A DNA stretch of 24,473 bases from a virus: positions 1 through 24,473 of IMG/VR virus record IMGVR_UViG_3300042465_002787; one strand, 5' to 3'. Both the position numbers and the translations under genes were made by a program. Below, piece after piece: positions 1,778 to 22,031 of this stretch. Each line of letters opens with the position of its first letter. Within the stretch, counting starts at the first letter, position 1. The notes beneath the pieces were generated by a model, which saw only the letters and a program-made list of their open reading frames with translations, ran no database searches and was not told the origin of the DNA.

Positions 1778-3756
1778 TGAACGAGCTATTTATTAATGGT
1801 AAAAGAGCAGATTTAAGCGACTTAACAAATGTAGGTGTAACATTTTGTGCTAATAATATAGGGGAGCTTCAGAATAGACAGGGAAACTTTACAAATACTT
1901 TCAAAATACCGTTAACAAAGAATAATAAAGAAATACTAGAATGGTCACATTTACAGACTTCATCTAGTTTAATTCCTTATAAAAAGAATAAAGCAACTTA
2001 TATTCAAAATGGTATTGAAATAATTAGTGATGGAGTTGCAGAAATTCAGTCTACAGATAACGATTATTTTTACATTAATGTTTATTCGGGTAATTTAGAT
2101 TTAATAGAAGCTATCGGAGGTTTAACCGTTGGTGAGCTATACGCAAGTGATGGTGTTTATAATTGGGCATTAAGTAATTGCTTTTACACAGCTTCAGATT
2201 ACTTTGTTTACCCTTTAATTGACTGGAGAGCTGATATAGATACTTTCTTTACAACGTCTACAATTGACGTTCGTGAAATGTTGCCTACGGCAATTGTGCA
2301 TAAAATGTTCACTAGATTGAGTAATAAAATAGGTTATACTTTTACGGGTAATTATTTAAATAGTTCTGACCATTTGAACATGGTATTAACACCGAACGAA
2401 TTAAAAGGAATTGACACGGGAGTTGAAGTATTAAACAATAGAAATAATTATATTTCAGATAAAATATTAGCTAATATAAGTATTGGAACGGCTACTGAAC
2501 AACATACATTATATCCTACATTTTCATTTTCATATAACGAAAAAACATTAGCAACTGATTTGCCAGATTTTGCTTTAGGAATTTTTAAACCAACTATAAA
2601 TAAAATAGGTACACTAAAATTTACAGGTAATTATAGACTGTGGTGGTCAAAAACTGAAAATTTCGGAGCTTTTACTTCGGCTAGTGATAAAGAAGTAACT
2701 GCTTATGCTGTATGTTCTTTTATAGATGACTTAGGAACTATAATTGAATCGAGAACGTCTACACCATCTACAAAAACATTGGATGTATTCCGTGCTGAAT
2801 TTGATTTTGATTTTGATTTTGAAACTACTGAACAAACTTTTTATAGTAGTAGACAATATAAAATAAAAGTAGATATTTTTACAACTCAAAATAATAAGGT
2901 AAATTCTAAAATTGAATTTTTTAATCAATTTACTGATTCATTTGGAAGTCGAGTTTATCAATATATTAGATTTACTCAAACTCAAAAAATAGCTTTTGGA
3001 AATCCTTTAAGTTTTCCTTCATTATTTACAATGAAAGTAATAGATGTTTTAAAAGACATCTTAAATATGGAAGCAATAATTATCCAAACAAATAACTATA
3101 CTAAGACTATTCAGTTTAACAAGTTTGAAGATGTCGTATTGAACAAGCCAATTGCAAAGAAATGGAGTGATAAAATTCAGTTTAATAAATCAATGGGGTT
3201 TACATTTGGGAATTATGCCCGTAGAAACAACTTGAAATTCAAGACTGATTCATACGAAAATGGTGTTATTTGGTTAAGTGATGAAACTTTAGAAGCTGAA
3301 AAGGATATGATTAAGCTAAACCACGACCCAACATTCCAATACCAACGATTTAATGCTTATAAGATACCTACCATTGATGGATTAAAGGATATAAATAACG
3401 AGTGGTTAAGTCCAACTTATAGGCTTTTACAGTTGAAGATTCAAAGCACTACATTCAATGTAAATTATACGGATGGCACAACAACAACTCCAAAAACTAC
3501 AGTAATCCCATTTTGTGAGTTTTATAATTTTGATAGGTTAATAACTGATAATTACAACGCTATTACTAATATTTTAAGGTCACCAAAAGTATTGAAAATA
3601 ATAGCTAATTTAGATGTAACAGATATTTCAGAGTTGGATTTTAGCATACCAATTGACATACAAAGACCCGATTTAAATTTAAGCGGTTATTTTTACATAA
3701 ATAAAATAGAAAACTACAAAGGTGGCTTGACAAGTTGCGAAATTATAGAGATATGA
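1777..3756 (+). CDS. Putative Bacteroidota phage tail/baseplate-like structural protein
   Basis: A 659-residue protein beginning MNELFINGKRADLSDL, followed by RQGNFTNTFKIPLTKNN near residues 33-49. This N-terminal pattern (NxLFINGxxxDL, then a QGNFxNxFKIPxT segment) recurs in large hypothetical virion proteins of Bacteroidota phages and prophages, next to tape measure genes. The rest is beta-rich with no membrane segment, consistent with a distal tail or baseplate-like component. A run of three GATTTT hexamers at 2803-2820 encodes a DFDFDF stretch. Its stop overlaps the tape measure start as ATGA. The structural role is likely; which part of the tail is inference. Confidence 0.6.
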   Translation: MNELFINGKRADLSDLTNVGVTFCANNIGELQNRQGNFTNTFKIPLTKNNKEILEWSHLQTSSSLIPYKKNKATYIQNGIEIISDGVAEIQSTDNDYFYINVYSGNLDLIEAIGGLTVGELYASDGVYNWALSNCFYTASDYFVYPLIDWRADIDTFFTTSTIDVREMLPTAIVHKMFTRLSNKIGYTFTGNYLNSSDHLNMVLTPNELKGIDTGVEVLNNRNNYISDKILANISIGTATEQHTLYPTFSFSYNEKTLATDLPDFALGIFKPTINKIGTLKFTGNYRLWWSKTENFGAFTSASDKEVTAYAVCSFIDDLGTIIESRTSTPSTKTLDVFRAEFDFDFDFETTEQTFYSSRQYKIKVDIFTTQNNKVNSKIEFFNQFTDSFGSRVYQYIRFTQTQKIAFGNPLSFPSLFTMKVIDVLKDILNMEAIIIQTNNYTKTIQFNKFEDVVLNKPIAKKWSDKIQFNKSMGFTFGNYARRNNLKFKTDSYENGVIWLSDETLEAEKDMIKLNHDPTFQYQRFNAYKIPTIDGLKDINNEWLSPTYRLLQLKIQSTTFNVNYTDGTTTTPKTTVIPFCEFYNFDRLITDNYNAITNILRSPKVLKIIANLDVTDISELDFSIPIDIQRPDLNLSGYFYINKIENYKGGLTSCEIIEI

Positions 3757-18467: not shown

Positions 18468-18501
18468 AAGTGAGGTACTTAATAATATCTCACTTTTTTT
18501 T
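18468..18501 (+). terminator. Intrinsic terminator after endolysin
   Basis: AAGTGAG (18468-18474) and CTCACTT (18489-18495) pair around a 14 nt loop and continue into T residues 18494-18501. It separates the late operon from the early promoter at 18526. Confidence 0.75.
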
Positions 18502-18525
18502 ATTTAAAATAATTTAAATTTACTG

Positions 18526-18555
18526 TTGTATATTAAAAAAGAATATGTATATTTG
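18526..18555 (+). promoter_or_regulatory. Early promoter P1 (Bacteroidota type)
   Basis: TTG at 18526-18528 and TATATTTG at 18548-18555 are separated by 19 nt, matching the TTG/TAnnTTTG promoter of Bacteroidota. It lies 29 bp upstream of ATG 18585. The 12-mer TTGTATATTAAA here recurs exactly at 21966, at the second early promoter. Confidence 0.8.
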
Positions 18556-18584
18556 TCGAAGTATTAACTAAAAACAAATTAATT

Positions 18585-19909: not shown

Positions 19910-20228
19910 AATCAAAGGAAGAATCGTAGGAATAAACGAGACAATCGTAGTAAGTGACAATTTCTCAAAAAGAGAGTTTAAAGTGGTAACAAATGAAACT
20001 TATCCTAACACTTATAAGGTGCAAGTAACTAAAGACAAATGTGCTTTATTGGACAAGTTCAAAGTTAACGACGAGGTTAATGTAAGTTGTAATTTAAACG
20101 GTAAAGACTGGACTAATCCAACTACTCAAATTATAAGCAACTTCCTAACATTGGATTGTTGGAAAATAGAACAAAATGTAAATGAGGTTAAAGTTGATAA
20201 TACAATACTTGAAGAGCCACCATTTTGA
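19899..20228 (+). CDS. DUF3127-type OB-fold ssDNA-binding protein
   Basis: A 109-residue protein. IEIKGRIVGINETIVVSDNF, then SKREFKVVTNETYPNTYKVQ and VNVSCNLNGKDWTNP follow the DUF3127 pattern, a Bacteroidota OB-fold family resembling SSB. The last residues, LEEPPF, form the acidic, aromatic-ended tail that SSBs use to recruit partners. It would cover phage ssDNA during replication or recombination and assist the ERF-like protein three genes upstream. The start follows TATG in overlap with the preceding small gene. No catalytic residues are expected. Confidence 0.8.
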   Translation: MNIEIKGRIVGINETIVVSDNFSKREFKVVTNETYPNTYKVQVTKDKCALLDKFKVNDEVNVSCNLNGKDWTNPTTQIISNFLTLDCWKIEQNVNEVKVDNTILEEPPF

Positions 20229-20440
20229 AATTATTAGTTAATAAGTCAATGTGTGACGAGGTTAGAAATAGCTTCGTTACACTTGAATTTCAACAAAGAA
20301 TAATAGTAGGGTTGAAATCAAAATCACCGTTAAGGGATAAAGTTTTAGAAAGTATAAATCGAGTGACTTACAACAAGTTTATCATTTATAAAATGCCAGT
20401 TAGTGAGAAAGTATTAAATGTATTTAAATCTTTCGTATAA
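20225..20440 (+). CDS. Small hypothetical protein at operon end
   Basis: A 71-residue frame beginning with TTG at 20225, overlapping the previous stop as TTGA; an internal ATG at 20249 would shorten it by 8 residues. The sequence includes FQQRIIVGLKSKSPLRDKVL, a likely amphipathic helix, and has no membrane segment. Its stop TAA lies inside the TATAAC of the first cassette boundary element, so this is probably the last ordinary phage gene before the cassette block. No family recognised. Confidence 0.5.
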   Translation: MKLLVNKSMCDEVRNSFVTLEFQQRIIVGLKSKSPLRDKVLESINRVTYNKFIIYKMPVSEKVLNVFKSFV

Positions 20441-20464
20441 CGGCTTGCTTATGCGTTGTTAGCA
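20435..20464 (+). repeat. Left boundary, attC-like element
   Basis: GTATAAC (20435-20441) resembles an R'' box and GTTAGCA (20458-20464) an R' box. Only 16 bp separate them, too short for a complete attC fold. TTATGC (20449-20454) is repeated inverted as GCATAA at 20477-20482, and GTTG/CAAC around the R' box also pairs, so a short hairpin is possible. Interpreted as a degenerate or truncated cassette boundary. Confidence 0.4.
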
Positions 20465-20531
20465 ACTGCTGTGAGTGCATAACCTACAATATTAATAAAA
20501 CCCTTTCGGTAAAGGTCAACCGAGTATAGTT

Positions 20532-20678
20532 ATGAGTGAGAAAAATCAATTTATTATTATTATGTTTGTCGGAATAATAATTTCTATATTCTTATTTATT
20601 ATGTTTCATAAGCATATTCAATCATCAGGAAATATTAGTTCCAAAAAGTTGAAGGATAAAACCAAAAAGGATAAATGA
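20532..20678 (+). CDS. Cassette gene: small membrane protein
   Basis: A 48-residue frame from ATG 20532 to TGA. After MSEKNQ comes one hydrophobic helix, FIIIMFVGIIISIFLFIMF, and then a basic tail with KKLKDKTKKDK, so the topology is probably N-out or N-in with the basic end in the cytoplasm. No promoter is seen; it follows the left boundary element by about 70 bp. It is too short for family recognition. Many integron cassettes encode such orphan membrane peptides; some give defence or toxin functions, but nothing here proves it. Confidence 0.5.
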   Translation: MSEKNQFIIIMFVGIIISIFLFIMFHKHIQSSGNISSKKLKDKTKKDK

Positions 20679-20687
20679 TAAATTAAT

Positions 20688-20801
20688 ATGAACGGAAGAA
20701 GATTATATAGAGAGTATGCACAGAGTAAAGGTAGAGAAGCGAAGGAATTTGTAAAGATTGAAGAAGATTGGATTATACGCAGTATACCAAATGGCACATA
20801 A
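20688..20801 (+). CDS. Cassette gene: very short basic protein
   Basis: A 37-residue frame, MNGRRLYREYAQSKGREAKE onward, ending in RSIPNGT with the stop TAA lying inside the R'' box of attC-like site 2. It is mostly helical and charged. A start 9 bp after the previous stop suggests both are read from one message within the same cassette. It may be a real short gene or a decayed remnant; no homology is recognisable. Confidence 0.4.
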   Translation: MNGRRLYREYAQSKGREAKEFVKIEEDWIIRSIPNGT

Positions 20802-20886
20802 CGTTTTGCAAGTAAGCGATGGTGCTTACGATAAATAAATTATTAACCGAGAATGTTTCTGCACTATTGCTTACTTGCTGTTAGGT
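20796..20886 (+). repeat. attC-like site 2
   Basis: R'' is ACATAAC at 20796-20802 and R' is GTTAGGT at 20880-20886, 91 bp in total. Inner arms GCAAGTAAGC (20808-20817) and GCTTACTTGC (20869-20878) are perfect complements; GATGGTGC (20818-20825) and GCACTATT (20861-20868) continue the stem with 6 of 8 matches. Spacers are unequal (5 nt against 1 nt), which is less usual than in class 1 sites. The recombination point expected from integron rules is between G20880 and T20881. Confidence 0.65.
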
Positions 20887-20913
20887 GCAGTGCTTCTCAC
20901 AAATTGAAACAAA

Positions 20914-21090
20914 ATGAACAAAATATTGATATGTGTATTATTGCAAATTGTTCTTTTCATACCATTCTATTTGATTTGGAGGAATGATTGCAAAACAATA
21001 GGTAAAGACAACTTAGCAGTAAGTTTACAAGAACGATTTTTGTATTGGCTTATATTTTGTCCAATTTGGTTGGCAGGTGTCTTGGATTAG
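20914..21090 (+). CDS. Cassette gene: two-helix membrane protein
   Basis: A 58-residue frame from ATG 20914 to TAG. Two hydrophobic segments are visible: ILICVLLQIVLFIPFYLIW at the N-terminus and RFLYWLIFCPIWLAGVL at the C-terminus, joined by a charged loop with RNDCKTIGKDN. The unit starts GTTAGGTGCAGTGC (20880) and its 3' end GCATTGCACCTAAC (21090-21103) is its complement in 13 of 14 positions. This is the clearest cassette in the block. The product probably sits in the inner membrane; function unknown. Confidence 0.6.
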   Translation: MNKILICVLLQIVLFIPFYLIWRNDCKTIGKDNLAVSLQERFLYWLIFCPIWLAGVLD

Positions 21091-21096
21091 CATTGC

Positions 21097-21173
21097 ACCT
21101 AACGTTTTGCAACTAACCGATGAGCTGTAGCAAACACAGTACTTTTCATCTTATTGGTTAATTGCTGTTAGCA
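21097..21173 (+). repeat. attC-like site 3
   Basis: R'' is ACCTAAC at 21097-21103, a full match to RYYYAAC, and R' is GTTAGCA at 21167-21173. The arms GCAACTAACC (21109-21118) and GGTTAATTGC (21156-21165) pair in 9 of 10 positions, and GATGA (21119-21123) pairs with TCATC (21146-21150). The centre CTGT...ACAG (21125-21139) can form a small loop. The left half is nearly the same as site 2 with coordinated changes in the arms. Confidence 0.65.
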
Positions 21174-21200
21174 CCAGTTTGTAATTTAAACAATAATTTT

Positions 21201-21527
21201 ATGTCAATATACGGAAATAGACAATTTCAAAAGACTGAACAATCAGTTAAACAACAGAAACAAGAAGAACGAAAGAAGAAGTTAATAGGTCAAATTATAC
21301 CTCACAACGGACATTCAATCTTTAAAATAAATGAAGAAACATTAGAAATTTCAGAACCTAAATATATTAAAAAGGCTTGGATATTTAATGGAGAAAACAA
21401 ACCAGAAGTATTAGTAGAAAAAGGTTTCTTTTATGTTTCAGCACTTAACGAAAAGAATGCTTTAAAGAAATATAATCAAGGTCGTAATGGTTCAAAAGAT
21501 ATTTCAGACGCACCTCTCTCGTTATAA
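21201..21527 (+). CDS. Cassette gene: hypothetical soluble protein
   Basis: A 108-residue protein. I chose ATG 21201; an upstream TTG at 21162 would place the start inside attC-like site 3. The N-terminal 30 residues are Gln/Lys/Glu-rich (QKTEQSVKQQKQEERKKK), followed by a small beta-rich domain (LIGQIIPHNGHSIFKINEET and EPKYIKKAWIFNGENKPEVL). The rest is FFYVSALNEKNALKKYNQGR. The unit begins GTTAGCACCA and ends TGGTGCTAAC, mutually complementary. No known family; the soluble domain could be a small DNA- or protein-binding fold. Confidence 0.55.
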   Translation: MSIYGNRQFQKTEQSVKQQKQEERKKKLIGQIIPHNGHSIFKINEETLEISEPKYIKKAWIFNGENKPEVLVEKGFFYVSALNEKNALKKYNQGRNGSKDISDAPLSL

Positions 21528-21529
21528 TT

Positions 21530-21550
21530 GGTGCTAACGGAAAACGGCTA
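21530..21550 (+). repeat. Partial attC-like element 4 (left half only)
   Basis: GGTGCTAAC at 21530-21538 mirrors the R' box at the start of the same unit (21167). It is followed by GGAAAACGGCTA, with no matching right arm before the next gene at 21585. The right half appears deleted or too diverged to see. Confidence 0.45.
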
Positions 21551-21584
21551 CTCGTCAGATTTTTTAACGACTAAATAATATAAA

Positions 21585-21848
21585 ATGACACCAGAAGAAT
21601 TTTTACAACAACTGAATCCTCATAGTAGGGTATTTGATTTAAGTATTGACTATAAATACACAGAAGAACAATTAGTGCTATTCGCTAAATTATACCACGA
21701 AAGCGAGTTAAAAAAATTGCGAGTAACCGATGTTAGCAACCGAAGGGAACTGTTAATTGCCTTTATGGAAAGCTTAACAACAGAGGACTTAACTCAAATT
21801 GAAATTGCAGAATTTGATAATGTTGCGAATAAATTTTTAGGCAATTAA
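21585..21848 (+). CDS. Cassette gene: hypothetical acidic helical protein
   Basis: An 87-residue protein beginning MTPEEFLQQLNPHSRVFDL. It is mostly helical and acidic: QLVLFAKLYHESELKK, RRELLIAFMESLTTEDLTQI and EIAEFDNVANKFLGN. No membrane segment is present. It lies between partial element 4 and the last R'' box at 21851, so it may be the last cassette. The helix content would suit a small binding or antitoxin-like protein, but no family is recognised. Confidence 0.5.
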   Translation: MTPEEFLQQLNPHSRVFDLSIDYKYTEEQLVLFAKLYHESELKKLRVTDVSNRRELLIAFMESLTTEDLTQIEIAEFDNVANKFLGN

Positions 21849-21850
21849 TT

Positions 21851-21890
21851 GTTGCTAACTAGCTGCTACCCGAACAATAGCGTATAAATG
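21851..21890 (+). repeat. Right boundary, attC-like half site
   Basis: GTTGCTAAC (21851-21859) is the exact complement of GTTAGCAAC at the left boundary (20458-20466). Following it, TAGCTGCTA forms a tiny palindrome. CGTATAA at 21881-21887 repeats the sequence at 20434-20440. No full right arm or R' box is seen, so this is a half site marking the right end of the block. Confidence 0.45.
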
Positions 21891-21906
21891 TTGTATATCC
21901 GATATA

Positions 21907-21946
21907 AATTAACTATCTAAATCTAGGTAGTTAATTTTTATTTTAC
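21907..21946 (+). terminator. Intrinsic terminator closing the early operon and cassette block
   Basis: AATTAACTATCTA (21907-21919) and TAGGTAGTTAATT (21924-21936) form a 13 bp stem with one G-U pair, a 4 nt loop, and a TTTTATTTTA tail. It lies 60 bp behind the last cassette gene, before the second early promoter. Confidence 0.75.
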
Positions 21947-21965
21947 ATTTATTTTAAATAAACGC

Positions 21966-21995
21966 TTGTATATTAAAGATAAATGTATATATTTG
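21966..21995 (+). promoter_or_regulatory. Early promoter P2 (Bacteroidota type)
   Basis: TTG at 21966-21968 and TATATTTG at 21988-21995 are spaced by 19 nt. The 12-mer TTGTATATTAAA is shared with P1, as are the leader ACTAAAAACAA (22016-22026) and the first codons ATGAAAGCA, so P1 and P2 are probably recognised together at the same phase. Confidence 0.8.
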
Positions 21996-22031
21996 TAAAA
22001 GAAAACGAAACAATTACTAAAAACAATTATT

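Follow-up and report, generated by a model that had tools for sequence, protein, structure and literature searches.

The units described here raise two questions: whether they are mobile gene cassettes of the kind found in integrons and, if so, which enzyme could move them. They lie in a 24,473-nt IMG/VR viral fragment (the window, by which we mean the whole stretch of DNA analyzed), which carries tailed-phage genes (portal, head protease, tape measure, endolysin, Erf and SSB) and whose hosts are Flavobacterium-like bacteria. By DNA, the array region is closest to Flavobacterium phage hattifnatt9-1, which matches at window 20841-20925. An earlier note on the window had pointed to two units with complementary ends and had read them as integron cassettes. 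The explanation that we favor, with a probability of about 0.82, is that they are mobile gene cassettes belonging to a structure-specific recombination system of the integron type, shared by Bacteroidota and their phages, with a recombinase, R, that is not IntI.

Own-end pairing and probable mobility of the units in the window

The array starts at the stop codon (GTATAAC, 20435-20441) of a phage gene that borders an insertion hotspot in all relatives. In four of these (L006, L010, L011 and L012), the hotspot is empty or nearly so, and only 27-44 nt separate this gene from the next conserved block. The features of the region are as follows:

20225-20440, + strand: left flanking phage gene
20442-20802, + strand: degenerate leftmost unit, ending in CACATAAC, own start no longer matching; ORFs at 20532-20678 (48 aa, one membrane helix) and 20688-20801 (37 aa)
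20458-20468, + strand: start-like GTTAGCAACTG, complementary over 9 nt to the last end (21851-21859)
20803-20879, + strand: attC-like spacer (L''/L' stem) that accompanies unit 1
20880-20894, + strand: start of unit 1, GTTAGGTGCAGTGCT, with G at position 11
20914-21090, + strand: gene of unit 1 (58 aa, two membrane helices)
21089-21103, + strand: end of unit 1, AGCATTGCACCTAAC, with T opposite G11
21104-21166, + strand: attC-like spacer of unit 2
21167-21181, + strand: start of unit 2, GTTAGCACCAGTTTG
21201-21527, + strand: gene of unit 2 (108 aa)
21524-21538, + strand: end of unit 2, ATAATTGGTGCTAAC
21539-21859, + strand: last unit, with truncated spacer and start lost, ending in TTAATTGTTGCTAAC
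21585-21848, + strand: ORF of the last unit (87 aa)
21860-21901, + strand: attI-like tail, AAC followed across the border by TAGCTGCTACCCGAACAATAGCGTATAAATGTTG; starting point of the array on the − strand

The pairings reported in the earlier note, of 20880-20893 with 21090-21103 (13/14 positions) and of 21167-21179 with 21526-21538 (12/13 positions), are exact in their coordinates, and in both the mismatch is at position 11, with G at the start and T at the end. The note had regarded this complementarity as its strongest single argument. By itself, however, it is not significant: GTT...AAC pairs with at least 12/13 matches number 2 in the whole window, against 1.24 expected from dinucleotide shuffles. 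Two such pairs within a 2.2-kb region have a P of 0.004, and two pairs that obey the position-11 rule occurred in 0/300 shuffled windows. The argument proved real once units were compared with one another (see below); chance complementarity is ruled out by decoys and shuffles, although the in-window counts alone would be insufficient. Noise as the source of the mismatch is likewise ruled out, because the single mismatch is the conserved G.T at position 11.

For the leftmost unit, a start at 20529 was rejected, as it matches at only 7/15 positions. Against the last end, GTTAGCAACTG shows the usual TG/AA at positions 10-11 and is likely a relic of a rearranged unit. No match was returned by Pfam for the 58-aa product of unit 1, by Pfam or PHROG for the 108-aa product of unit 2, or by Rfam for the window. 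A leader, CTTCTCACAAATTkAAACArAATGA, is common to different cassettes between the start and the ATG (window 20895-20916; L001, hattifnatt9-1, 3051-3073). Two 67-nt promoter-like repeats (TTG...TATATTTG type, 73% identical) are found at 18495-18561 and 21935-22001, the latter just 3' of the array.

The spacer at 20803-20879 is 98% identical ahead of the same cassette in L456/L017, where the downstream sequence differs, and a near-identical copy of the spacer at 21104-21166 lies ahead of GTTAGCACC units in L018 and L021 and of a GTTATATGCC unit in L015. Because the spacer upstream of the gene accompanies it in the closest copies, the array reads backwards. This rules out the borders drawn in the earlier note, from the start of a gene to the next GTT, since it is the upstream and not the downstream spacer that the closest copies share. 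For the same reason, the circular junction to be expected for unit 1 would have 21103 joined to 20803 rather than, as in the earlier note, 21166 to 20881.

Relatives of the 58-aa gene of unit 1 are present in 33 viral contigs, and in ten of these, as in the window (11 phages), the gene is kept as a cassette, with gene bodies 86-96% identical to that of the window. Two versions of the ends are found among the 11 copies, GTTAGGTGCAG... and GTTAGTGGCTG...; start and end have changed jointly at positions 6, 7 and 12, and a one-sided change was seen at position 10 only. The earlier note had held that own-end pairing marks integron-type insertion, and that independent variation of start and end would speak against it. 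The joint change of both ends, that is, covariation within one gene family, therefore favors the cassette reading. The sequences downstream of the copies are of ten types, with boundaries exact to the base, so that the same cassette is seen in many contexts. Between unit 1 of the window and L017, homology runs from the base after the preceding AAC to the unit's own AAC, the exception being a shared GTTTTGCA, which opens many spacers. In the L448 copy, the start is lost and the end decayed.

Upstream spacers among the copies are of five types, and the pairs L014/L021 and L038/L120 (L120 3329-3999) have only the GTT...AAC part in common, with different spacers on both sides. Thus, the spacer does not always stay with the gene, which departs from the simple attC x attI prediction and counts against the explanation that we favor. 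Either both R boxes are exchangeable or the spacers were replaced by homologous recombination. Circles without a spacer, in which 21103 of unit 1 would meet 20880, would also account for the swaps. The assembled viral contigs do not contain the exact circular junction of unit 1, although absence from them proves little. Homologues of the unit 1 gene outside cassettes (L463-L475) lie beside a recurring motif, GTTGAC(A/G)T(C/T)AACAAAATGAT, near the gene starts; the motif looks like another repeat system or a promoter element.

The pairing rule and the predicted folded site

Loci were collected from viral relatives, from bacterial genomes by the spacer pattern, and by recombinase, and yielded 243 non-redundant units (100 viral and 143 chromosomal), all selected for G/T at position 11. 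The first 15 nt of these units pair with their own last 15 nt, with a sharp stop at nt 16: pairing is 97-100% at most of positions 1-14, 74-86% at position 10, 81-90% at position 15 and 13-18% at position 16. Pairing that is own-end and ceases after nt 15 rules out generic intergenic palindromes. The mismatch at position 11 is conserved, with G at the start and T at the end. As the units had been pre-selected for G/T at this position, two tests were run that ignore it. Of 159 pairs without a mismatch at the other 14 positions, 140 had G/T at position 11 when viewed on one strand or the other. The second, unbiased test used 101 starts found from the neighboring spacer alone; an own end matching at 13/14 positions or more was present for 50.5% of them, as compared to 0.4% of decoys, and G/T was found at position 11 in 51/51 of the starts with a matching own end. 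The end pairs of the nine tandem units of hattifnatt9-1 are likewise mismatched at position 11, with G at the start and T at the end.

To assess folding, own end, spacer and own start were joined as in a circular cassette. On the strand with the orientation of the unit, the mean fold energy was −29.0 kcal/mol for the own form and −20.6 kcal/mol for the same spacer with the end of a neighbor, the own form being better in 90/91 cases. The opposite strand gave −23.6 kcal/mol, and the unit-orientation strand was again better in 90/91. In chromosomal arrays, spacers are most often 118 nt long and, like attC sites, comprise an L stem and an asymmetric 4-nt bulge. The units therefore have the hairpin of R and L boxes, with one strand favored, that characterizes integron cassettes, as well as their G^TT borders and own-end complementarity, here seen as exact borders in the copies and as covariation.

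We propose that a single strand of the junction (own end, spacer and own start) would fold into a long hairpin. Its R stem, of 15 bp, would come from the cassette's own ends and be followed by an unpaired, asymmetric spacer, the L stem and a loop. The G.T wobble at position 11 would make one strand fold better and probably marks orientation or strand. In the attC sites of IntI, it is extrahelical bases that mark orientation or strand.

The recombinase R and its linkage to the units

In array-bearing genomes, the IntI model matched tyrosine recombinases inside or beside the array loci, the proteins that we call R. The match is in two pieces flanking the insertion and scores 147-212 bits, the cut-off being 265, and R is without the extra domain that IntI, the integrase of integrons, has between motifs II and III. 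The motifs on either side of the IntI insertion are 100 aa apart in IntI; in Xer they are separated by 66 aa, and in R by 59 aa (chromosomal) or 53 aa (phage). The catalytic motifs of R are intact, and among solved structures XerA and IntI4 come closest to it, both in sequence and in fold. A tree of 61 rows placed IntI, Xer and phage R in one group each (100/99 or better), with chromosomal R outside both IntI and Xer; R is not a Xer protein, as Xer formed its own branch (100/100). L217, labeled as a phage R in a first tree, turned out to be an IntI-like row.

Chromosomal R carries one to three N-terminal HARP-like domains, and phage R is compact, without such domains. The HARP domain of SMARCAL1 (4o66) is the top match to the N-terminal domain of chromosomal R by sequence (E 0.054) and by fold (probability 0.96, E 0.04). 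The best score with Pfam HARP was 17.4 bits (E 0.0033; cut-off 25), and, as it falls under the formal HARP thresholds, we call the domain no more than HARP-like. In L151, L155, L143, L147 and L098, the domains lie ahead of the tyrosine recombinase and have a beta-beta-alpha-beta-beta-alpha arrangement; for one of them, the AlphaFold pLDDT was 91.6. HARP is the DNA-substrate-recognition domain of the annealing helicase SMARCAL1, and the HARP-like domains of chromosomal R may assist in the capture or annealing of the folded strand.

We searched 198 genomes, drawn evenly from the phylum, for R by protein alone, and found strong R-family matches (E ≤ 1e-60) in 71 of them. True IntI above the family cut-off was present in 57/198; the idea that Bacteroidota simply have no IntI was thus dropped, and those loci became a control. 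This number is far greater than that of the few complete Bacteroidetes integrons obtained from RefSeq complete genomes (PMC9024848). For linkage, we counted 23 R loci, picked by recombinase score alone, at which R has the N-terminal domain and is followed by 1.5 kb or more of sequence. Signature units were found downstream of R at 19/23 loci, with 48/49 units in one orientation, and none were found in shuffled sequence; the first unit mostly lies 34-130 nt behind the stop of chromosomal R. At control loci, signature units were present at 0/19 Xer genes and at 3/20 true IntI genes of the same phylum. YR loci scored as without N-terminal domain had units in 3/9 cases, which counts against the explanation that we favor. 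In viral contigs with compact R, units lie upstream of the gene in 41/45, with 165/168 units in one orientation, and the last unit ends less than 160 nt before R in 27 contigs, often at about 52 nt. R genes were also seen on viral contigs of 280-465 kb (L386, L388, L408, L421 and L422), several with adjacent cassette arrays; these may be jumbo phages, or else host contigs wrongly filed as viral.

An attI-like core, (C/G)ATATAnnnTA abutting GTTA, is found at the R-proximal border in both hosts and phages. Thus, as in integrons, an attI-like site lies next to the recombinase gene at R loci; the window has the attI-like tail only, and similar tails terminate the arrays in L004, L014 and L019. The presence of an attI-like site and of a recombinase gene beside related arrays agrees with the cassette insertion proposed in the earlier note. 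R would cut at AA^C/G^TT and would join the cassette to the attI-like site (CATATAnnnTA abutting GTTA) or to another cassette.

Chromosomal cassette genes point away from attI in 123/132 decided units, as in classical integrons, the attC-like site being 3' of the gene. In phages, the window included, this is reversed: the genes point towards attI in 22/23 units (1:22, as compared to 123:9 in the hosts), and the attC-like site is therefore 5' of its gene. The inversion would bring the cassette genes in line with phage transcription. No R was found in the window record, which may be incomplete, in its relatives or in hattifnatt9-1, and no IntI was found in the window record. An enzyme serving the arrays of the window phage and of hattifnatt9-1, both with an attI-like tail, would therefore have to act in trans, and we suggest that R does so. 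With two intact units and no integrase nearby, the window has the composition of a CALIN (at least two attC-like sites), in a record that may be a fragment. The array of hattifnatt9-1 (L001 90-4432), an isolated phage with a known host, has nine cassettes, including one for a DNA methyltransferase, and no recombinase.

Could the units be ordinary IntI cassettes, the arrays being CALINs served by a host IntI and R being incidental? The 57/198 genomes with true IntI would allow this, short own-end pairing occurs in IntI arrays too, and Polaribacter phage P12002L, which carries units of the kind described here, has two tested attC sites of which one recombined with IntI1 (Qi et al., 2023; PMC9892861). 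However, the 15-nt pairing with G/T at position 11 adjoins R and hardly ever IntI (19/23 and 3/20 loci), own-end pairing in the IntI integrons of a Vibrio and a Shewanella phage extends over about 8-11 nt and has no position-11 rule, and R genes are directly beside the arrays and the attI-like site in hosts and phages alike. We consider this explanation unlikely.

The units could also be non-autonomous and transposon-like, with 15-bp terminal inverted repeats and moved by a transposase, the spacers being separate repeats. Such elements would account for the pairs of copies that share the GTT...AAC part only. The terminal sequences, however, vary between units yet always match within a unit, which a sequence-recognizing transposase would not allow, and the units lie head to tail in arrays next to a tyrosine recombinase, making this a very improbable origin. 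It is hardly credible that the units are transcript-level elements whose ends pair in RNA around the gene (terminators, processing or attenuation) and that spread by homologous recombination, for although the G.T of phage units would be a G.U pair, which is tolerated, in their sense RNA, and the units are in operon-like order, chromosomal genes run the other way (123:9), so that the structure would form in antisense RNA, and the exact mobile borders and the recombinase linkage would be left unexplained.

Relation to known integrons

The proposed R-based cassette system resembles IntI integrons, and in particular the Vibrio-type super-integrons, in its tandem cassettes, each with one gene and a hairpin attC-like site, in own-end complementarity, in the G^TT border, in the better folding of one strand, and in the attI-like site beside a tyrosine recombinase. 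Unlike IntI, R is without the IntI-specific insertion (59/53 as compared to 100 aa) and groups apart in the tree; the R stem is of 15 bp with a fixed G.T at position 11, rather than of about 8-11 bp, HARP-like domains are found at the N-terminus, and gene orientation is inverted in phages. We lean towards the view that this is a second integron lineage, without IntI, in which the R family reads a 15-bp own-end stem with an obligatory G.T at position 11, and that it would occur in a sizeable share of Bacteroidota and include self-contained phage integrons with inverted genes. IntI is the defining feature of integrons, and searches of the IntegronFinder type use an IntI-specific domain; cassettes served by a different recombinase would therefore largely escape them.

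In the reverse integrons of Treponema/Spirochaetota, the recombinase, which is IntI, is transcribed towards and in line with the cassettes. The R of host arrays is likewise transcribed towards and in line with its cassettes, but it is outside the IntI clade. The reverse orientation of those integrons has been described (PMC9668308). With IntegronFinder 2.0, in which the extra domain is used to recognize IntI, very few Bacteroidetes integrons were reported (PMC9024848). The closest protein models and folds to R are XerA, NF040815 ("site-specific tyrosine recombinase/integron integrase") and the "integron-like" YR subgroup, some members of which are without the insertion (PMC8138268). Unlike NF040815 proteins, R was under the cut-off of that model in all proteins tested and is found beside cassette arrays.

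Phage-borne integrons and CALINs, including that of P12002L, have been published (Qi et al., 2023; PMC9892861). The CALINs of that survey resemble the present arrays as integrase-less attC clusters in flavobacterial phages, with methyltransferase cargo; Flavobacterium or hattifnatt phages are not mentioned in it and, unlike in the present arrays, no G.T rule, R, attI-like tail or systematic inversion is seen in the parts consulted. A search of a limited set of openly accessible journal papers returned no description of R, the position-11 rule or inverted phage arrays.

If correct, the explanation that we favor would add an independent example of folded DNA serving as substrate for a tyrosine recombinase, and would offer G.T at position 11 as a testable rule by which such an enzyme distinguishes ends or strands; it would also mean that phages carry exchangeable gene cassettes, both with and without a recombinase of their own. 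As isolated phages of this kind exist (hattifnatt9-1 and P12002L), the mechanism is directly testable. In Arundinibacter roseus (L026 3933-4280), an SSB-like gene lies between R and the first cassette, an arrangement that fits a single-strand DNA mechanism.
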